This document shows positions 609-28,222 of a stretch of 30,808 bases of DNA, piece by piece. The DNA comes from a virus. A program made the translations under genes and the position numbers. The notes below the pieces were generated by a model. It saw only the letters and a program-made list of their open reading frames with translations. It searched no databases and had not been told where the DNA came from. The stretch lies in the IMG/VR virus record IMGVR_UViG_3300046810_000278, positions 1-30,808 of that record, one strand, 5' to 3'. How positions within the stretch are numbered: the first letter of the stretch is position 1; each line of letters opens with the position of its first letter.

Positions 609-1640
609 TCACTTGGTGGGAGTAACTTTCTTGCCCATGCGATTGCGTATGTATTGCTCAGTCATCACCACGGTAGTATGCCCGAGTTGATCTCTGGCCT
701 GCATGATGTCACCGCTGGATTCGGCCTTGTCAGTGCCTGCCTTGGCGCGTAAATCCCGCATCTGAAATTCAGATTTCTCCACCCCGGCCGCTTCCCTGGC
801 CAAGTCAAACCTCCTGCGCAACATCGCCACCGTCATTGGTGTGCCGTCCTCTGTAACGATCAGCCGCGTCGAGCGGACCTTGTGTTCTGACTTTCGGGAC
901 ATGATTCGATCAATCAAAACCTTGAGCTCGCCAGTGATCTCGATCCGACGCTTTGCCTTAGTCTTTCCCTGCAACACCCAAATCTGCCCGTCGCGCACAT
1001 CGCGCTCGTCCATCAACCGGGTATCGGTCACTCTTTGACCGGTCAAATAAGCGAGGTCCATTGCGTCTTGTAGGCCCGCGTCCGCCTTGTCGTGCACGCG
1101 CTTGAACAGCGCATCTTCGACATATGTGTCCCGGCCGGTCTCTTTGTTGCCCTTGATGCCCGCGCATGGATTGGCAAGCGATGTGTAGCCCTTATCCCGG
1201 GCGTAATTCCAGATCGCGCTGAGCAGAGCCTTTTCGCGGTTCGCGCGCACTGGCGCGGACTTGCGCCAAGTGAGGTATTGGCGAACGTGCAATGGCTCGA
1301 TCGTTTCCAGCGGTGCCGGTGGATCGTCAAAGAAAGCGAACAGGTTTTTCAGCTCGCGCTTGTTATCAGCCTGGGTGGCTGTTCCTTTGGTTGGGACGAT
1401 GTCGACCATGTATTTTTCGGCGACGTAGCGGAACGTGATGACCTTGGCGACCAGATCGGTTGCGGTGCGATCGCGCTCTAGCTTCGCGTATTCCATGATC
1501 GCCAAGCCGTAGTCGCTGCCCAGGGGAATTTCCTTTCGGTCTTTTCCGCCCGTGTCGTAGTAGTAGAACACCCGGCCGCTGGCTTTCTTGCGTTCCCGCA
1601 GCCTGGCGATCGAGCCGGGTTTACTTGGTCGTCTTCCCAT
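609..1640 (-). CDS. int: Tyrosine-recombinase phage integrase
   Basis: A 343-residue tyrosine recombinase that would catalyse site-specific integration and, with an excisionase, excision. The N-terminal part has an arm-binding basic region followed by a core-binding SAM-like region. The catalytic part shows the first arginine in TGQRVTDTRLMDERD, the RDLR box (the usual HxLR with Asp in the His position), LGHTTVVMTEQY with the second His and the nucleophilic Tyr near the C-terminus. I chose the ATG at 1640 rather than an upstream extension because MGRRPSKPG is a typical start and lies 1 base after the stop of the upstream gene, implying coupling. It is the last gene of the leftward operon and abuts tRNA-Leu. 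Very secure as a family call. Confidence 0.95.
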   Translation of the reverse strand: MGRRPSKPGSIARLRERKKASGRVFYYYDTGGKDRKEIPLGSDYGLAIMEYAKLERDRTATDLVAKVITFRYVAEKYMVDIVPTKGTATQADNKRELKNLFAFFDDPPAPLETIEPLHVRQYLTWRKSAPVRANREKALLSAIWNYARDKGYTSLANPCAGIKGNKETGRDTYVEDALFKRVHDKADAGLQDAMDLAYLTGQRVTDTRLMDERDVRDGQIWVLQGKTKAKRRIEITGELKVLIDRIMSRKSEHKVRSTRLIVTEDGTPMTVAMLRRRFDLAREAAGVEKSEFQMRDLRAKAGTDKAESSGDIMQARDQLGHTTVVMTEQYIRNRMGKKVTPTK

Positions 1641-1641
1641 G

Positions 1642-1848
1642 TCAGCTGGCCTTACGTGATTTCCAGACGGGCTTTTCTGATTCAAATGCGCCGACGGCGG
1701 TGACCGCCATCGCGGTGACACTCGGCCAGCCGTTCACTTTAATCGTATGGCGAACGCCATTCTTTTTCAGGTTGAGGATCTGACCTGCCTTGGTCCGCGC
1801 GCCGGTGAGCTCGCAAACCTCCTCGTGTGACAGAAACTGGATGGTCAT
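1642..1848 (-). CDS. DUF4224 small protein, probable excisionase or integration regulator
   Basis: A 68-residue protein beginning MTIQFLSHEEVCELTG, matching what I know of the DUF4224 family, small proteins repeatedly found directly upstream of phage integrases. The N-terminal part is predicted as a winged-helix-like DNA-binding fold similar in position to excisionases (LSHEEVCELTG...GQILNLKKNGV). It ends 1 base before the integrase ATG, so the two are translated together. A GGAG ribosome site lies 7 bases before the ATG and a 6-bp hairpin at 1861-1877 lies just 5' of it. Function as recombination directionality factor is inferred from size, fold and place. Confidence 0.8.
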   Translation of the reverse strand: MTIQFLSHEEVCELTGARTKAGQILNLKKNGVRHTIKVNGWPSVTAMAVTAVGAFESEKPVWKSRKAS

Positions 1849-2712: not shown

Positions 2713-4758
2713 TCAAGCTGCTTGTGCCTGGGTCTTCGTGACTTTCCACGGGTCGTTGGCACGAGCCAACGCCGCCATCGGCGGAGGGCTTACGCTGTTG
2801 CCGCACATGTGGACCTGCTGGGTTTTGGTGAATGGCTTGCCGTCGGCGCCGTGGCTGATGATGTAGTCGGCGGGGAATCCCTGAGCCTTGTACAACTCGG
2901 TCGGTTGCAGCATCCGAAGACAGATGTCGACGATCACATACGGCGTGCCCTTGATAGTGACGGTCACCAGTCCCAGCCGATCCTTGGTGGTGATGGTTGG
3001 CGCTGGCGCGTCGGCGGCGCTCATGTTCTCGGTGCCGTAGTAGCTGATCAGGAATGCCGCGACCCGTAATGCGCCGGCCTCAACCTCTGGCGAGAGCTGC
3101 AGCTCGACCAGCGAGCTCTTGCCGCCACCGCCTGCTGTGATGGTCGGCGCCGGTTCGTCCACGCCCTGGCGAACGCTGGCGCCGAACTGGCGCTCCATGA
3201 ATGCGGTGACCAGCCCGTGGTGAGTGCCGCCGGCGCTGATGGTGTGCAGCGGATCGGCCGCGTCCCGCGCATCGCAGTTGCCGCGCAAGTGCACCAGGTT
3301 TGCCGTCACCAGTTGCTGCTGGCTGCCGGTGTTGGTGACCGTGGTCATCGGATCCTTGATGCTCTTGGCTGCCGTCGTATTGAAGCCACCATTCATTTGC
3401 GCCATGAACACAGTTGAGATGCCCATGGCGTGGGCAGCACCGGCAGGGCGCTGATAGTTGCCGCCGCTGGTGATGGTGGGTAGTGGTTCGTCGAGCGCTT
3501 TGCCTTCATCCGAGAACCGAAACTTCACCAGGTGAGCCGCGGCAAGCGCGCGGTGGCCACGCGTCATCAAGGTGCCGAGAGGCTTGTCCGCCGCTACTGG
3601 GTTTCCGGCATATACCGGGCCACCGGCGCCGACCAGCACCGGACTGATCAACGTCAGCTCGCCGCGATTCGCACAGGTCACCGTCGGCAACGGGGCGTGG
3701 GGATCGTTGTTCCGGTCGCTGCCCTGATGGGTTGCTGGTGCAATGATGGGGCTCGCCATCGCAAACGATCCGCCGCGCGGCCACGCCGTCACGGTGCGCA
3801 GCGGTTCGTCTGCCGACTGCACGCTTTCACCGGACCAGTTCGCGATCGGCACAATGAACGGGTCCGCCGCATCAATCACGAACTTCTTCATGCCCTTGGC
3901 GATTCGGCGAAGAGTGGCCGGTGCCAGCGGCTTTGCCCGGTCGAAAATGCTTTTGCTCGGGATGTTCCAGTCGATGCACTCGGCGGCGGTGCGCCACTTC
4001 TTTTGGCCCTTGGCCGGGTTCTTCGCGTGGGTTGGCTCAGGCCACACGATCGGCTGACCATCGCAGCGGGCGATCATGAACAGTCGCTCGCGGCTGGTCG
4101 GAGCGCCGAAGTCGCAGGCCTTGATCACCCGCCATTCAACGGCGTAGCCCAGACGCTCCAGCTCGGCGACGAATACTGTCCATGTTTGCCCGCGACGTTT
4201 CGGGTCAGGCACCAGAAACTGCTGGTGAACCGGTACGACTTCGCCGGGCTCGGCAATGGCCCCGCCCAACTTCATCACCCGGCCAGTTGCCTTGCAGCGC
4301 TTGGCGATCAGCGGCCCCCACTGGAGAATCTGCTTCACGTTCTCCAAGCTGATGACGCGCGGCTTCTTCTTGCCGGCCCACTTCAGGCCGATCCACGACA
4401 GGTTTCGAATCTCGCGCTTGCGCGGCTGTCCGCCGGCGGCCTGGCTGTGATGCGTGCAGTCCGGAGACATATGGAACCAGCCAACGGCCTTGCCGCCGCA
4501 CTCCGTATCCGGATCACCCTCGAAGACGTCGGTGGTGTAGTGCACGGCGCCCGGGTGATTCACGGTGTGCATACTGATCGCTTGCGGGCTGTGGTTCTTC
4601 GCGACGTTCACCGCGCGGCCCAGCCCCATCTCCAGCCCGGTACCGGCACCGCCGCCACCGCAGAAGAAGTCGACAACGATCTCATCGTCCTGAGTGCTGA
4701 AGCCGAGTCCGTATTGAGTTTTGAAATCGAAGGGGTGTTTCTTCTGTTGTGCGGACAT
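2713..4758 (-). CDS. C5 cytosine-specific DNA methyltransferase with repeat-containing recognition region
   Basis: A 681-residue DNA (cytosine-5) methyltransferase. Motif I VDFFCGGGGAGTGLE (29-43) binds S-adenosylmethionine; motif IV is SPDCTHHS with nucleophile Cys101, the PDC variant of the usual PCQ that I know from related phage enzymes; motif VI is LENV (138-141); motif VIII GAPTSRERLFMIA (218-230); motif IX RMLQPTELYKAQGFP (615-629) and motif X GNSVSPPP (653-660). Residues 310-600, where target recognition normally sits, carry eight copies of a D-x-P-L-x-T-[VI]-T unit. The enzyme is longer than stand-alone enzymes of about 350-450 residues because of this. The ATG at 4758 follows AAGGA. 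No restriction partner is nearby, so it probably protects phage DNA or marks the host chromosome. Confidence 0.93.
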   Translation of the reverse strand: MSAQQKKHPFDFKTQYGLGFSTQDDEIVVDFFCGGGGAGTGLEMGLGRAVNVAKNHSPQAISMHTVNHPGAVHYTTDVFEGDPDTECGGKAVGWFHMSPDCTHHSQAAGGQPRKREIRNLSWIGLKWAGKKKPRVISLENVKQILQWGPLIAKRCKATGRVMKLGGAIAEPGEVVPVHQQFLVPDPKRRGQTWTVFVAELERLGYAVEWRVIKACDFGAPTSRERLFMIARCDGQPIVWPEPTHAKNPAKGQKKWRTAAECIDWNIPSKSIFDRAKPLAPATLRRIAKGMKKFVIDAADPFIVPIANWSGESVQSADEPLRTVTAWPRGGSFAMASPIIAPATHQGSDRNNDPHAPLPTVTCANRGELTLISPVLVGAGGPVYAGNPVAADKPLGTLMTRGHRALAAAHLVKFRFSDEGKALDEPLPTITSGGNYQRPAGAAHAMGISTVFMAQMNGGFNTTAAKSIKDPMTTVTNTGSQQQLVTANLVHLRGNCDARDAADPLHTISAGGTHHGLVTAFMERQFGASVRQGVDEPAPTITAGGGGKSSLVELQLSPEVEAGALRVAAFLISYYGTENMSAADAPAPTITTKDRLGLVTVTIKGTPYVIVDICLRMLQPTELYKAQGFPADYIISHGADGKPFTKTQQVHMCGNSVSPPPMAALARANDPWKVTKTQAQAA

Positions 4759-4875
4759 AGAGAATCCTTGCCGGGGCATGCCCGGACGGTGGAGGTGAAT
4801 AAATTTCTTGGTGGGTTCGGGCGAGTCGGAGATCGACTACGATTAGGATCCGCGGACGGACAAAGAGGGTCGGCA

Positions 4876-5430
4876 ATGAAGCACGTCTATATCGATAGCA
4901 ACATCTTCAACTTCATACACGATCATTCGATCGATTTATCTGCCGAGTTTCCACCTGGTGAGTTTTCGCTTCGTATCGTTGGTGAGCAGGATTTAGAGAA
5001 GCGCGCCATACCGGAGGGGAAGCTTTGGCTAAAGCAATTCATTGAGAATTCGATCGATAATTGGGAAATAAAAACCGACAGGCTGTTCGGGTTCTACGAT
5101 CCACGACACTCGCCCGAGGATCAAAGGGCGGGAGGCTACGGAGATGGATCTGGCAACGGCGGCCGGTATGCGAGTCTCGAAGAAGTAGAGTTCATTAACG
5201 AGCAGCGCAAGGAAGGCGAACTCCAGAAAAGAAAGTCAGGGCTATATCCGGACGAAACTGACATATCTCTTGGTGCTCGAGCGGTGTCCGGCGCAACGGT
5301 AATTACGCTAGACGCCAAAAAGGGGCCACTTAGAGCCGCCAAGGATAGAGGTGCCCCAGTGGTGTTTCTGACGGATTTTCTCGCAAGCGGTAAGTCATTA
5401 CGTGAGTTCGTCTTCCCCGATCTGGCGTGA
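4876..5430 (+). CDS. PIN-like domain protein (putative ribonuclease), plus-strand insertion
   Basis: A 184-residue protein starting MKHVYIDSNIFNF. A Rossmann-like first strand with Asp7, an acidic pair E127/D129 in DETDISLGARAVSGA and Asp146 in VITLDAKK are arranged as in PIN-domain nucleases, which are Mg-dependent ribonucleases common in toxin-antitoxin and defence loci. Between them (60-115) is a long Gly-rich, charged insert not typical of VapC. It is the first gene on the plus strand inside a leftward operon, with GAGG 7 bases before the ATG. A membrane protein gene follows 58 bases later on the same strand. No typical small antitoxin gene is adjacent. The PIN assignment rests on motif spacing seen by eye. 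Confidence 0.7.
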   Translation: MKHVYIDSNIFNFIHDHSIDLSAEFPPGEFSLRIVGEQDLEKRAIPEGKLWLKQFIENSIDNWEIKTDRLFGFYDPRHSPEDQRAGGYGDGSGNGGRYASLEEVEFINEQRKEGELQKRKSGLYPDETDISLGARAVSGATVITLDAKKGPLRAAKDRGAPVVFLTDFLASGKSLREFVFPDLA

Positions 5431-5488
5431 TTCGTAGAAGTGGGGTATTTGTGTTCGGCCCGGCATGGAGCCGGATCAAGGAGAAGTA

Positions 5489-6001
5489 ATGTCTTCGTTT
5501 TTACTAACTATTTTGGTCGCCGCCGCTGGCGCATATTTCGCGGTATTCAAAACAAAGCAAGAAAAATTGTGGTTAGAGCGCTACGAGAAAACCAGCGGTG
5601 CGCTGCTACGAGCGAATCTCATTACAAGGTTCCTCCTTAGTGAAGTGCACGGCGAGTATCAACTCCACGGATTGACCCAGCATGAAAAGCAATCGCTCGA
5701 TGCTCATTGGCCGATAGCTCGATATGAGCTGTCGCAGGACATAGTGCGATTGCAGCTGCTTTTCACCGATCGTGATCTGGACGATGTCCACTCTGCTTGG
5801 AGCGCCCTTCAGATGGACCTTTTCTTCCTTATTGAGGAATCATCCGAACATGACCGCCCTGAATACATATCCAAGGCTCTTCCTAAATCTGAATGGCTTG
5901 AGCGGGCCCTGATTGAATTAGCACAGCGCAAATGCGTCGAGAACATCTTTCACACATGGATGAGAAACGTGAAGCCGCAGGTGCGAAAGGATAAGCGTTG
6001 A
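5489..6001 (+). CDS. Membrane-anchored protein of unknown function
   Basis: A 170-residue protein with one N-terminal membrane segment (MSSFLLTILVAAAGAYF) followed by a charged, helical cytoplasmic part beginning KTKQEKLWLERYEK. AAGGAG lies 7 bases before the ATG at 5489, which is preferred to the earlier in-frame 5465. It follows the PIN-like gene and ends with TGA immediately abutting the stop codon of the convergent gene at 6002. The pairing with a PIN-like protein suggests a two-gene functional unit, for example a membrane sensor or restraining partner; this is inference. Confidence 0.75.
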   Translation: MSSFLLTILVAAAGAYFAVFKTKQEKLWLERYEKTSGALLRANLITRFLLSEVHGEYQLHGLTQHEKQSLDAHWPIARYELSQDIVRLQLLFTDRDLDDVHSAWSALQMDLFFLIEESSEHDRPEYISKALPKSEWLERALIELAQRKCVENIFHTWMRNVKPQVRKDKR

Positions 6002-6403
6002 TCAGGCGCGCCGAACTTTGAAATGCAGCATCGCCTTTATGCTGTGGCAGTAATCCTGAAGCCGCTCATAGGCCTTGTATTTGGCCTGACTTCGAGTGGC
6101 TGCCCACACCCTCACCAGATCTTCACGAGCTTCCCGGTTCCAGTCGAGATCGTCCCAGTCATGCTTGAACGGCAGGACCAACCACTCTTTGAGCGGTAGC
6201 GTCTCGGCCATTTCGCCGTACTGCATTTCGTGGGTGGGGTGGTAGTTGCCGATGCGCTTCTTCGGGTCTTCGTCCAGCACCACGCCGATGTAATGGCCGC
6301 GGTCCGCCAGGATGACGCCGGGCTTCCCATAGGCGATGACGCGGCGGCCGATCTCGGCGGGCACCTGATAGTGCTGCCGGACGTATGCGCAGTTGTGGGT
6401 CAT
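6002..6403 (-). CDS. Conserved phage hypothetical protein
   Basis: A 133-residue soluble protein, MTHNCAYVRQHYQVPAEIGRR..., rich in aromatic and charged residues with a strand-rich N-terminal part (VIAYGKPGVILADRGHYIGVVLD) and a helical C-terminal part. I do not recognise a named domain. It is in the leftward operon and has GGAG 7 bases before the ATG. Its stop codon abuts that of the convergent gene, so the plus-strand cassette was fitted in without any spare bases. The N-terminal strand pattern is reminiscent of small regulatory or nucleotide-sensing folds, but no catalytic motif is visible. Confidence 0.75.
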   Translation of the reverse strand: MTHNCAYVRQHYQVPAEIGRRVIAYGKPGVILADRGHYIGVVLDEDPKKRIGNYHPTHEMQYGEMAETLPLKEWLVLPFKHDWDDLDWNREAREDLVRVWAATRSQAKYKAYERLQDYCHSIKAMLHFKVRRA

Positions 6404-6501
6404 AGATTATCTCCAGTCAGGCGCCGCCCTCCGTGACCGGTGGTGGCAATTTGGTTCGGGTTGGGGTATTAAGCTCGTGAGAGAAATTTAAGGTGATGAA
6501 A

Positions 6502-6894
6502 ATGTTTGCGATTAAATGCTTGGGTTCTTCGACTCCTGAGGTGAGATCAGTTGACAGAGGAGTGTGTTTTGGATTTTTCGATCAGCCGATCTCGTTCGAA
6601 ATTTCTTCGAGCTTTGTTTCTACACCGCTAAAAATTCGCTTTTTTTTGAAAGAAGATGCTCGGTTTGATCCTGTTTCAATGGTCGTTGGAGATATGGTCA
6701 ACGACACTATTGATCTTACTTTCTACAACGTAAAAAATGGATCAAGTGGCGGTTTGAGAACGCCAGTTGATCTTGTGAAGATGAGAGGCTTCCAGCTGTC
6801 TATGTTTTTTAGGGTAGATAGGGCCTTTGATATTCAGTCTTTTAATCTTACGTACGAGTTTTTCGAAAGCCGCATTCCTGAGGGCGCAGAATGA
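6502..6894 (+). CDS. Unknown beta-rich protein, plus-strand accessory gene (DUF6864-like?)
   Basis: A 130-residue protein, MFAIKCLGSSTPEVRSVDRG..., with alternating strands and no membrane segment. It reminds me of proteins labelled DUF6864, but I cannot confirm this. GTG at 6493 and ATG at 6496 are also in frame; I chose ATG at 6502 because AAGG ends 8 bases before it. The last four bases overlap the next gene as ATGA, so the two are translationally coupled. The stretch 6480-7160 is visibly richer in A and T than its surroundings, a sign of separate origin. Together with the next gene it forms a second plus-strand insertion in the leftward operon. Confidence 0.75.
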   Translation: MFAIKCLGSSTPEVRSVDRGVCFGFFDQPISFEISSSFVSTPLKIRFFLKEDARFDPVSMVVGDMVNDTIDLTFYNVKNGSSGGLRTPVDLVKMRGFQLSMFFRVDRAFDIQSFNLTYEFFESRIPEGAE

Positions 6895-7157
6895 ATAGCT
6901 GGAGCGAATTCGCCGCGACCTCAAAGAAAACCGTACAAGGCGGTGGTGAAAAGCCTAGAGTCAGGGATTATGCCGTAATTACAATCGTCGATAACTGGAT
7001 GCCAATTTGCGCCTTGTTGATATTGGTTTGTTGTGCTGGGGCGGGCTTATTCTGTGCAAATTCTGACAAGGCGTCAGTAGTGGATGCTGGTAAATGGTTT
7101 TTTGAAAGTGCAAAAGTAGTACTCGGTGTGTTTCTAGGACTGCTTGCAAAGAAATAA
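6891..7157 (+). CDS. Small membrane protein coupled to the preceding gene
   Basis: An 88-residue protein with a charged N-terminal 30 residues, a strong membrane segment (WMPICALLILVCCAGAGLFC, about 37-56) and a second hydrophobic stretch at the C-terminus (AKVVLGVFLGLLA). The start overlaps the preceding stop as ATGA. A soluble protein coupled to a tiny membrane protein in a prophage is a common form of anti-phage or superinfection-exclusion system; no domain supports a specific role. Confidence 0.75.
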   Translation: MNSWSEFAATSKKTVQGGGEKPRVRDYAVITIVDNWMPICALLILVCCAGAGLFCANSDKASVVDAGKWFFESAKVVLGVFLGLLAKK

Positions 7158-21936: not shown

Positions 21937-21957
21937 ATGCCTCGAATTCACCTGTAG

Positions 21958-22025
21958 CCAGGACAGCCTTCGGGAAGGCCTGGACGTCGATAGCCGGATA
22001 GTGCGACGCACGGATCAACGCCGGC
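21958..22025 (+). other. Two adjacent stem-loops in untranslated DNA before the holin
   Basis: First, CCAG-bulge-GCCTT-CGGG-AAGGC-CTGG (21958-21983). Second, GCCGG-ATA-GTGC-GAC-GCAC-9-CCGGC (21993-22025). They lie in the 405-bp gap 21866-22270, which has no convincing gene. Such stacked stem-loops after a terminator resemble RNA antitermination or processing elements. The rest of the gap holds one weak terminator-like hairpin (22158-22182) and the holin ribosome site. Confidence 0.5.
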
Positions 22026-22270
22026 AGCCCGCGCACTCTGACCTCACAATGCTTTCAGGGTGGCGCGAGACAGGAACAGCGAGATCGATGCAAAGGGGCG
22101 TCGACGCTGGGAAAGTCTTTGGCCGACAGCTCGGAAAGACGAGCGCACCTATTCAGGGCCTCTGCATTCGCGGGGGCTTTTTCGTTTTCGGCTCCCCACA
22201 CCCATTGCCCCGAGCTGGGAGTGCAGCGGACGCCGGATTTATCAATCTCCCCAAGGGGGAGGCAACCCGG

Positions 22271-25468: not shown

Positions 25469-26762
25469 CCCGCCGGTAAAGCTGACGCCGAAGCAGGCGA
25501 ACATTTACTGCTGGGGCTTCCAGCCACAGGCGCGCTTCCGCGATGCGGTGTGTGGTCGCCGGTTCGGCAAGACGTTCTTGGGCAAAGCTGAGATGCGCCG
25601 AGCTGCTCGGCTGGCAGCTGAGTGGGGCGTGAGCGTCGAGGACGAGATCTGGTACGGCGCGCCGACCTTCAAGCAGGCCAAGCGCGTGTTCTGGCGTCGG
25701 CTGAAGCAGGCAATCCCTGAAGCGTGGCGTGCACAACGTCCGAACGAAACGGAATGCTCGATCACGCTCAAGTCTGGCCACGTCATGCGCGTGGTAGGGC
25801 TCGACAACTACGACAACTTGCGCGGCTCCGGTCTGTTCTTCGTCCTGGTGGATGAATGGGCTGACTGTCCATGGGAGGCTTGGGAAGAGGTTTTGCGGCC
25901 GATGCTTTCGACCTGCCAATACTCGATACCGGGCATCGGCATGCGGAAGGGTGGTCACGCGCTACGCATCGGCACGCCCAAGGGATTCAATCACTGCTAC
26001 GACACGTTTCAAGACGGCCGGCCGGGGCATGAGCCTGATCACAAGAGCTGGCTCTACACCTCGCTCGATGGCGGCAACGTTCCGGCTGAAGAGCTGGATG
26101 CGGCGCGCCGCAAGATGGACCCTCGCACCTTTCGGCAGGAATACGAAGCCAGCTTTGAGAATTACGCAGGTGTTGTCTACTACACGTTCAATCGTGAGGC
26201 GAACCGCACCAGCGAAACCATCAAGCGCGGCGAGGCCTTGCACATCGGCATGGACTTCAACGTCATGAAGATGGCGGCAGTCGTGCACGTCATTCGCGAT
26301 GACCTGCCATTGGCGCTCGGCGAGTTTTCAGATGTGCGGGACACGCCTGAGATGATCGAGAAGATCAAGCTCCGCTTTCCTGACCACAGCATTGCGATCT
26401 ACCCGGACGCCAGCGGCCAGAACACAAGCAGCAAGAGCGCAAGCGAATCTGATCTGTCACTGCTGAAAAAGGCGGGATTTACCGTAGTGGTGGATTCGAC
26501 CAACCCCGCTGTGAAGGATCGGGTCAACGCCATGTGCGCGATGTTCGCCAATACCTACGGCGAGCATCGATATCTGGTCAACGTCGACCAGTGTCCGAAA
26601 TACACGCAGTGCCTGGAGCGCCAGATTTACACGGACAAGGGCGAGCCCGATAAGAAGGCCGGCTACGACCACCTGGTGGATGCCCCTGGCTACTTCATTG
26701 CCAAGCGGTACCCGATCAAAACACGCACAGGCGGAACACGCCGAATTGGAGGCTTGGCCTGA
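25443..26762 (+). CDS. terL: Terminase large subunit
   Basis: A 439-residue DNA-packaging ATPase-nuclease. Walker A is CGRRFGKT (37-44), Walker B FFVLVDE (132-138) with the catalytic Glu, motif C region GTPKG (177-181). The nuclease half has MDFN with Asp271, PDASG with Asp322 and GYDHLVDA near 407-414, an RNase H-like metal site. It starts at the ATG at 25443, with GGAG 10 bases upstream, and overlaps the preceding gene. Its stop overlaps the portal start as TGATG. Confidence 0.94.
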   Translation: MSPLPRTYDPPVKLTPKQANIYCWGFQPQARFRDAVCGRRFGKTFLGKAEMRRAARLAAEWGVSVEDEIWYGAPTFKQAKRVFWRRLKQAIPEAWRAQRPNETECSITLKSGHVMRVVGLDNYDNLRGSGLFFVLVDEWADCPWEAWEEVLRPMLSTCQYSIPGIGMRKGGHALRIGTPKGFNHCYDTFQDGRPGHEPDHKSWLYTSLDGGNVPAEELDAARRKMDPRTFRQEYEASFENYAGVVYYTFNREANRTSETIKRGEALHIGMDFNVMKMAAVVHVIRDDLPLALGEFSDVRDTPEMIEKIKLRFPDHSIAIYPDASGQNTSSKSASESDLSLLKKAGFTVVVDSTNPAVKDRVNAMCAMFANTYGEHRYLVNVDQCPKYTQCLERQIYTDKGEPDKKAGYDHLVDAPGYFIAKRYPIKTRTGGTRRIGGLA

Positions 26763-28222
26763 TGCCAGTGCAATCGACAAACCCGGACTACGACGCGCAC
26801 ATCGCCGAGTGGGAAATGATGGACGATGCCCTCGAGGGTGAGTGCGCCGTCAAGCGTAGCGAGCGCAACCTGCACAAGCCGAGTGGCATGGTCGAAGCTG
26901 AGAAGCTCGACAGTGCGGGCAACAAGTACCTCTACGAGAACTACACGAACCGTGCTCAGTACGAGCACTGGGTGCGCGATTCGCTGCGATCGATGATGGG
27001 GCTGGTTTCCCGGTTGATTCCGGAGATTGAGCTGCCCGCCGGCCTGACGGGGATCGAGGACAATGCCACTTCTGACGGCTTCGGCCTGAAGCAACTGTTC
27101 TTCCGCATGGTCCGCCAGGCTATTTCACACGGCCGCGTCCCTCTGGTGGTGAACATCGATGAGCGCGGCGAACCATACTTTTCAACATACGCCACGCGCA
27201 ACGCGATCAACTGGGACACGGCTGATCAAGGCGGTCGCCAAGACCTGGTTCTTTCGGTGTTCCGGGAGTTCCGAAAGAAGGGCAGCGACCGCTACAGCCA
27301 CGACTGCGACACGGTGTTCCGCGAGTTCTTCATGCAAGGCGAGACCTGTTACACCGCTGTGCGGAACGAAGGTGGCGAGATCGTCGAAGAGGAGAGACCC
27401 CTGGGCACCACTGGCACCGATAACCGACTGGTCAAAGGCCTGTCATACCTGCCGGTGATCTATTGCGGCTCGACCGACAACTCGCCGGAAGTGGATGAGG
27501 TGCCGTTGCTCACGATGGCGCGTGCGGCGCTGAAGTCCTACCAGTTGAGCGCTGACTACTTCACTGCGCTACACCAGACCAGTCACCCGCAACCATGGGT
27601 ATCTGGCCTGGATGACTCGGTGGAGCTGAGCGTGACCGGGCCATCTGCGGCATGGGATCTCGGTCGAGACGGCAAATGTGGCTATCTGGAGTTTCAAGGC
27701 GCTGGGATTGAGGCCGTGCGCAAGGCAATGGATGACCAGAAAAACGCCGCGCTTGAAGCCGGCGCCAAGGTCATGGATGTCGGCGGTACCGAGTCGGGTG
27801 AGGCGCGTAAAACACGTCAGAACGACCAGCACGCCACTTTGCACAGCATTGTCGTCACGGTGGCAGAGGCAGTGGAGCAGGCGCTGCGCTACGCAGCTGA
27901 GTGGAAGGGCTACGACCCCAAGCAGGTCAAGTTCAAGGTGAGCCCTGAGTTTGTGACCCCTGTGGTCGATGCCCAGGTGCTTGCGGAGCTGCTCAAGGGA
28001 ATGATGGCTGGCACGATCAGCGCCGACACTTACTGGCAGTACCTCACCACCGGCAAGTTGCCGGATCGCCCATACGAAGACGAAGCCGACCTGATCAGCG
28101 ATGAGCGCGAGTCGGCCGGCATCAACTTGGACAAAGACGATGCCAACGACAAACCTGGCGCAGGCAGACAGCCAACTGCTGGAGCAGACGACGCGCCACT
28201 CGGTAATGCTGGAGCGGCTTAA
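26762..28222 (+). CDS. Portal protein (DUF4055)
   Basis: A 486-residue DUF4055-type portal protein that would form the dodecameric ring at the packaging vertex. Family features are the start YDAHIAEWEMMDDALEGE, YLYENYTNRAQYEHWV, the stretch RVPLVVNIDERGEPYFSTYA and the helical C-terminal portion with TRQNDQHATLHSIVVTVAEA. The tail is acidic and disordered and overlaps the next gene by 83 bases. Confidence 0.9.
   Translation: MPVQSTNPDYDAHIAEWEMMDDALEGECAVKRSERNLHKPSGMVEAEKLDSAGNKYLYENYTNRAQYEHWVRDSLRSMMGLVSRLIPEIELPAGLTGIEDNATSDGFGLKQLFFRMVRQAISHGRVPLVVNIDERGEPYFSTYATRNAINWDTADQGGRQDLVLSVFREFRKKGSDRYSHDCDTVFREFFMQGETCYTAVRNEGGEIVEEERPLGTTGTDNRLVKGLSYLPVIYCGSTDNSPEVDEVPLLTMARAALKSYQLSADYFTALHQTSHPQPWVSGLDDSVELSVTGPSAAWDLGRDGKCGYLEFQGAGIEAVRKAMDDQKNAALEAGAKVMDVGGTESGEARKTRQNDQHATLHSIVVTVAEAVEQALRYAAEWKGYDPKQVKFKVSPEFVTPVVDAQVLAELLKGMMAGTISADTYWQYLTTGKLPDRPYEDEADLISDERESAGINLDKDDANDKPGAGRQPTAGADDAPLGNAGAA

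Follow-up and report, generated by a model that had tools for sequence, protein, structure and literature searches.

A leader-headed membrane-protein gene and a solitary PIN-fold gene, probably independent accessory modules in a Pseudomonas-type prophage

The locus and its genes

The window, i.e., the whole stretch of DNA analyzed here, spans the 30,808 bases of an IMG/VR virus record. The features that bear on the segment 4876–6001 are collected in Table 1. The protein encoded at 26762–28222 shares 73% identity with a P. syringae prophage region annotated as portal, and the phage records that have DNA in common with the slot or the leader described below are nearly all from Pseudomonas. In agreement with the first-pass annotation, the segment lies in a prophage, where it makes up an accessory slot. 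In the rightward part of the prophage, a Proteo-phage-1 RNA (RF03044) lies on the plus strand at 21952–22029 (74.1 bits versus a gathering score of 42).

Table 1. Features in and around the accessory slot (positions in the window)
Feature	Position	Strand	Details
Integrase gene	612–1721	-	Adjoins tRNA-Gly/Cys/Leu cluster
DNA methyltransferase-like gene	2713–4779	- (leftward)	Borders the PIN module; ORF list
Block 98.4% identical to L001	4742–5448	+	Methyltransferase start, PIN gene and first part of leader; blastn
ORF 1, solitary PIN-fold protein gene	4876–5430	+	ATG 4876, stop 5428–5430; 184 aa; PHROG 26388
Block 85% identical to L005	5422–6473	+	Both ends at leaders; blastn
Class A leader core TGGC-N15-GGGGTATT, promoter-like	5423–5449	+	Starts at the last codons of the PIN gene
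Leader hairpin CCGGC-ATGGA-GCCGG	5460–5474	+	Follows the leader core
Ribosome-binding site AAGGAG of ORF 2	5478–5483	+	Five bases before ATG 5489; sequence
ORF 2, membrane-anchored all-helical protein, cargo gene	5489–6001	+	170 aa; stop 5999–6001
Backbone gene	6002–6403	- (leftward)	133 aa; PHROG 16342; convergent with cargo gene; slot marker in related prophages
Class B leader core	6444–6470	+	Heads the next rightward gene; motif scan
DUF6864 gene, second leader-headed cargo	6493–6894	+	Likely start 6493 or 6502; Pfam E 4e-8
Small membrane-protein ORF	6891–7157	+	88 aa; overlaps the end of the DUF6864 gene; ORF list

ORF 1 matches PHROG 26388 (E 8.5e-26), the function of which is unknown, and has no match in Pfam, NCBIfam or PADLOC; a sequence-profile search of the PDB gave noise only. 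Its AlphaFold2 model, for which six natural sequences served as input, has a pLDDT of 79.7 and a pTM of 0.80. When the model is compared with the PDB by Foldseek, almost every top match is a PIN domain, with modest E-values (best 1.6e-3). A second structure aligner gives the best Z, 9.8, to VapC2 (123 residues, rmsd 3.9) and a Z of about 9 to Utp24 and AF0591. Residues D7, N9, E41, D129, D146 and K148 are invariant across seven sequences of the family, down to 30% identity. By the secondary structure of the model, the acidic quartet D7, E41, D129 and D146 sits at the canonical PIN places, that is, after strand 1, in the following helix, in the central helix and after strand 4. Thus, the structure matches and the positions of the acids bear out the first-pass annotation's lone PIN-like protein: as modeled, ORF 1 is a PIN-fold protein, and it presumably cleaves RNA. 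The residues singled out beforehand for a structural check, D7, E127/D129 and D146, are all conserved, and E41, the usual second acid, is to be added to them. The Gly-rich insert remarked on earlier is a real stretch of the protein. Its residues 86–95 have a pLDDT below 50, and because the stretch is modeled as disordered and is absent from the 69%-identical L003, it is reckoned to be a variable loop.

The reading frame of ORF 2 is open from 5465, although ATG 5489 is the likelier start. Hydropathy supports one N-terminal membrane helix (19-residue mean 1.98), in agreement with the membrane anchor proposed earlier; past this helix, the protein is probably helical and cytosolic. Its structure model is of middling confidence (pLDDT 69.5), and a fold search with it returns generic helical bundles and nothing else. 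The outline of the protein resembles that of several other cargo proteins (see below), and ORF 2 is most likely a protein of the exclusion or abortive-infection type.

The arrangement of the two genes is as first described. ORF 1 and ORF 2 lie head to tail on the plus strand with a gap of 58 bp, no small antitoxin-like ORF is found beside ORF 1, and the TGA of ORF 2 meets the convergent stop of the minus-strand gene at 6002–6403 as TGATCA, with zero spacing.

Relatives of ORF 1 occur in the virus records L001 (98% identity), L002 (79%), L003 (69%), L017 (44%) and L018 (42%), and on plasmids of Nitrosospira, Polaromonas and Photobacterium (28–39%). Relatives of ORF 2 occur in L005 (86%), L006 (78%) and, at 51%, in L199 and L233, which look like near-duplicates. 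Since relatives exist for both, neither is a chance ORF. Among 50,697 phage records, neither has a relative. A short-pattern search for ORF 1 in a genome collection of 84,980 species found nothing, even with alignment, which is weak evidence of absence because a search of this kind reaches close relatives. Two unrelated plasmids carry distant PIN relatives a few kb from DUF262-domain genes (L007, 6748–8427; L008, 9363–10540), a proximity that hints at a defense neighborhood for these relatives. At 4955–5170 of L019 there is an apparent decayed PIN homologue, its tblastn match being limited to residues 135–176 and its reading frame short.

The junction, the slot and the leader family

Between the two genes lies a leader. 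The copy at 5423–5476 consists of TGGC-N15-GGGGTATT followed by the hairpin, and then come the ribosome-binding site and the start codon; the 27-base core reads TGGCGTGATTCGTAGAAGTGGGGTATT. The end of ORF 1, CTG GCG TGA, is itself leader sequence. That is, the leader supplies the last two codons and the stop of the PIN gene. The edges of the core are break points: similarity to L001 ends at 5448, where the same core goes on to head a different gene in L001; L005 and L006 resemble the window from 5422 onward. In two other records, L059 and L098, GGACATAGAGGATCCTCGCCGG is joined directly to CTGGCGTGATTCG; in the window, the matching halves, 4753–4774 and 5422 onward, are split by 647 bases with the PIN gene. 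By the test for an extra gene of the moron kind, then, the PIN stretch counts as inserted, L059 and L098 having the sequence unbroken. The PIN gene is not directly behind a recognizable leader. On its other side, the neighboring methyltransferase has a counterpart at the same position in L001 that is 36% identical overall, yet the N-terminal start and the upstream DNA are nearly identical (window 4742–4779 versus L001 2848–2885), so that the exchange break of these methyltransferases is just inside the 5′ end of the gene.

The place of ORF 2 is marked by the backbone gene. Wherever this gene is present at 79% identity or above (16 records), it is faced by a convergent, leader-headed gene that ends 4–50 bases from its aligned end, so TGATCA is one case of a frequent tight joint. 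About 12 unrelated genes occupy the slot in these 16 records, the membrane-protein gene being the occupant in the window and in L005; a fixed locus with variable cargo, as looked for in a hotspot, is thus found.

The leader recurs far beyond this slot. The exact 17-mer GTGGGGTATTTGTGTTC is present in at least 119 IMG/VR stretches, almost always in one extended context. Conservation is strong outside the 17-mer too, starting some 27 bases upstream of it and ending some 35 bases past its first base. A second class, TGGCAATTTGGTTTGGGTTGGGGTATTACGGG, turned up unsought in these loci and is present in at least 120 stretches; in the window it is the copy at 6444–6470, which heads the DUF6864 gene. 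Common to both classes is TGGC-N15-GGGGTATT. At sequence level the spacing is rigid: 147 sites have exactly this spacing, versus 0–3 sites at any other spacing from 6 to 23, and shuffled sequence has none. Where GGGGTATT stands outside the retrieval 17-mer, TGGC is at exactly the same distance in 34 of 62 cases. Read as −35 and −10 hexamers, the TGGC and TATT boxes have a spacer of 17 bp. As sigma-70 boxes they match poorly, and a promoter scan found none; recognition may therefore depend on an activator or on a different sigma factor. A sigma-54 reading was dropped, as the −12 GC is missing.

The hairpin, CCGGC-AUGGA-GCCGG in the RNA, is present in most copies, not all. Its CCGGC/GCCGG stem is nearly invariant and displays almost no covariation; as a repeat across the window, it is not above chance. 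Terminator-like sites are at chance level, with no conserved terminator seen, and no leader was found on plasmids. Against Rfam, the leader has no match at the gathering score, the one microRNA match being at chance level (E 0.83). Its strings are absent from the open-access papers searched, among which most subscription journals are missing, and no paper was found there that describes a conserved motif preceding accessory genes of Pseudomonas prophages. Thus, the leader is apparently undescribed in Rfam and the open-access papers searched, though the elements of the locus (PIN proteins, morons, variable defense-rich phage loci and start-associated repeats) are of known kinds.

What the leaders head was surveyed in 243 loci, retrieved by leader sequence from the virus collection. 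They contain 280 leader sites, 274 of which are followed by an ORF of at least 40 aa, with a motif like a ribosome-binding site before 249 of the leader-headed ORFs. The cargo start codon is at a median of 49 bases (interquartile range 47–50) from the G two bases before GGGGTATT. BLAST grouping of the cargo gives about 126 unrelated families, most of them unnamed, and 18 are found behind both leader classes. PADLOC matches in a first cargo set are PDC-S31, PDC-M14B, AbiP, CBASS E2-type and PDC-S12; further ones are TIR-TM (E 2.8e-58), AbiP, PD-T7-4, PDC-S33, PDC-M16A and weaker ones. Pfam matches include putAbiC, HEPN RiboL-PSP, SUKH, DUF2971 and 8xMP, as well as RelA_SpoT, AbiU2 HEPN and TIR_2. 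We make no claim that defense genes are enriched in the cargo, because the PADLOC control, i.e., non-leader genes, is dominated by two methyltransferases among the matches listed. A membrane helix is predicted in 25 of 114 cargo proteins versus 11 of 109 controls (p = 0.018), a weak difference given crude gene calls in the control. Of the 243 cargo genes whose two neighbors could be called, 119 have oppositely oriented genes on both sides, and cargo is therefore expected to need its own promoter. In the window, the second cargo gene, DUF6864, and the 88-aa ORF that overlaps it have no relative in any fetched locus.

Two unrelated prophages have, in a non-leader context, a common ORF tail, ...CRVIHTV.AFHHRATVQV.PVVGRLSGLSARRSPVEAMRS... 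(L002, 7183–7590; L006, 8713–8997), a candidate for a repeated element, non-coding or Ash-like.

A pair or two separate genes

The segment 4876–6001 probably carries two accessory modules that belong to a Pseudomonas-type prophage and are independent of each other: an exchangeable membrane-protein gene headed by the leader, and a solitary PIN gene. The first-pass annotation had instead taken the PIN protein and a membrane partner as one prophage defense unit, in which the partner senses infection or holds the nuclease inactive. The head-to-tail order, the 58-bp gap, the PIN fold of ORF 1 and the membrane helix of ORF 2 are all as such a pair would have them. A pair that never co-occurs elsewhere had been named beforehand as the refuting outcome, and no co-occurrence was found. 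In a small sample, eight PIN relatives (five phage, three plasmid) and four relatives of the membrane-protein gene, the two are never together: whole-record searches find no membrane-protein gene in the three closest PIN records (L001, L002 and L003) and no PIN gene in L005 or L006, and L017, L018, the three plasmid PIN loci, L199 and L233 each have one of the two genes. The joint between the genes is a leader that heads other genes too. In L001, moreover, the 98%-identical PIN copy has another neighbor, the switch falling inside the leader. With no co-occurrence and a different neighbor in L001, a role of the membrane protein in sensing infection or restraining the nuclease is without support, and the two-gene unit can be given hardly any credence. 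As to the proposed link to defense, genes in slots of the same type elsewhere do match known defense families.

The PIN protein might alternatively be the toxin of a VapBC-like toxin–antitoxin module with an overlooked antitoxin, VapC toxins being among its closest folds (the Z of 9.8 is to VapC2). ORF 1 does share with VapC and other PIN-domain ribonucleases the fold and the acidic positions, D7, E41, D129 and D146 in its own numbering. It differs in having no antitoxin, in forming its own sequence family, PHROG 26388, and in its extra variable loop; at 184 aa, with a long extra stretch, it also exceeds the matched VapC chains, which have about 130 aa. The neighbors of ORF 1 vary by locus, and no conserved small partner is present in the window, in L001, L002, L003, L017 or L018, or in the plasmid loci. 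Unlike VapC with its antitoxin, the family is solitary on prophages and plasmids alike, and a VapBC-like module is very improbable.

Under the reading of two independent modules, the leader would combine a TGGC/TATT promoter-like box pair and a ribosome-binding site with, in most copies, a 5′ stem-loop. The membrane-protein gene would be one of many interchangeable single genes behind this leader, facing the leftward early operon, and the PIN gene a separate ribonuclease-like module between the leftward methyltransferase start and the leader. The segment shows why adjacency of prophage genes without co-occurrence does not make a two-gene system.

Function of the leader and comparison with known systems

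The leader is presumably a promoter active in the lysogen. Cargo that has its own promoter-leader and is set against the leftward early operon could be expressed in the lysogen, and near-identical leaders may let one cargo gene be exchanged for another by homologous recombination. We infer that much of the cargo serves exclusion or defense. The leader could instead be a recombination boundary or a translation-initiation element and not a promoter. Consistent with this are the hairpin and ribosome-binding site that adjoin the start codon in most copies, the breaks of similarity at the leader and the poor sigma-70 score. The most rigid part, however, is the TGGC/TATT pair, 30–50 bases upstream of the start and kept in copies without the hairpin, and the upstream gene often faces away (119 of 243), so that the cargo needs its own promoter. 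A non-promoter role therefore seems rather unlikely.

A parallel for such an element is the start-associated sequence (SAS) of cluster K mycobacteriophages, a 13-bp repeat that overlaps the ribosome-binding site and is present in at least 11 copies per genome. Many unrelated small genes of these phages are immediately preceded by a SAS or an extended SAS (ESAS), in some cases with inverted repeats, and the function of these sequences is unknown (PMC3203893). The leader is like them in being a short conserved sequence directly upstream of unrelated phage genes. It differs in that its sequence and hosts are unrelated, its consensus being unlike the SAS sequence GGGATAGGAGCCC next to start codons; it is longer, with a rigid promoter-like box pair, and its 1–2 copies per locus head exchangeable accessory genes.

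Morons are open reading frames flanked by a promoter and a terminator (PMC3029335). As with morons, the cargo is a single gene that brings its own control sequence and is inserted where relatives have contiguous genes, and leader-headed cargo often faces against the operon. In contrast to morons, one leader is common to about 126 unrelated genes in many phages, and no conserved terminator accompanies it. The slot also recalls the defense hotspots of P2-like phages and P4-like satellites, in which a variable locus lies between conserved phage genes (PMC9122126). In both, different, often defense-like genes come at a fixed place, but the slot belongs to other phages and hosts, it takes single genes with a common leader, and its cargo is putatively defensive by family resemblance.

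A broader proposal, which we put forward tentatively, is that the leader is the dedicated lysogeny promoter of widespread one-gene exclusion or defense cassettes in Pseudomonas prophages, and that most cargo families are unrecognized anti-phage or host-modifying genes; the DUF6864 gene and the membrane protein of ORF 2 would be among them. Should the leader prove to be a genuine lysogeny promoter, it would offer a simple bait for prophage accessory and defense genes missed by profiles, any gene starting about 49 bases past TGGC-N15-GGGGTATT being a candidate. It would then also become possible to test how morons are exchanged, because the joints are located to single-base precision.

The hairpin and ribosome-binding part occurs by itself, at 96–100% over 27 bases, in H66, an F116-like phage of P. 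aeruginosa (L142, 3001–3027), and in PseuP_222, a P. protegens phage (L141, 3001–3027). As these two share only this part, the halves of the leader may be separate modules. In H66, it is flanked by two leftward genes, a DNA methylase gene on one side and a LexA-like gene on the other.
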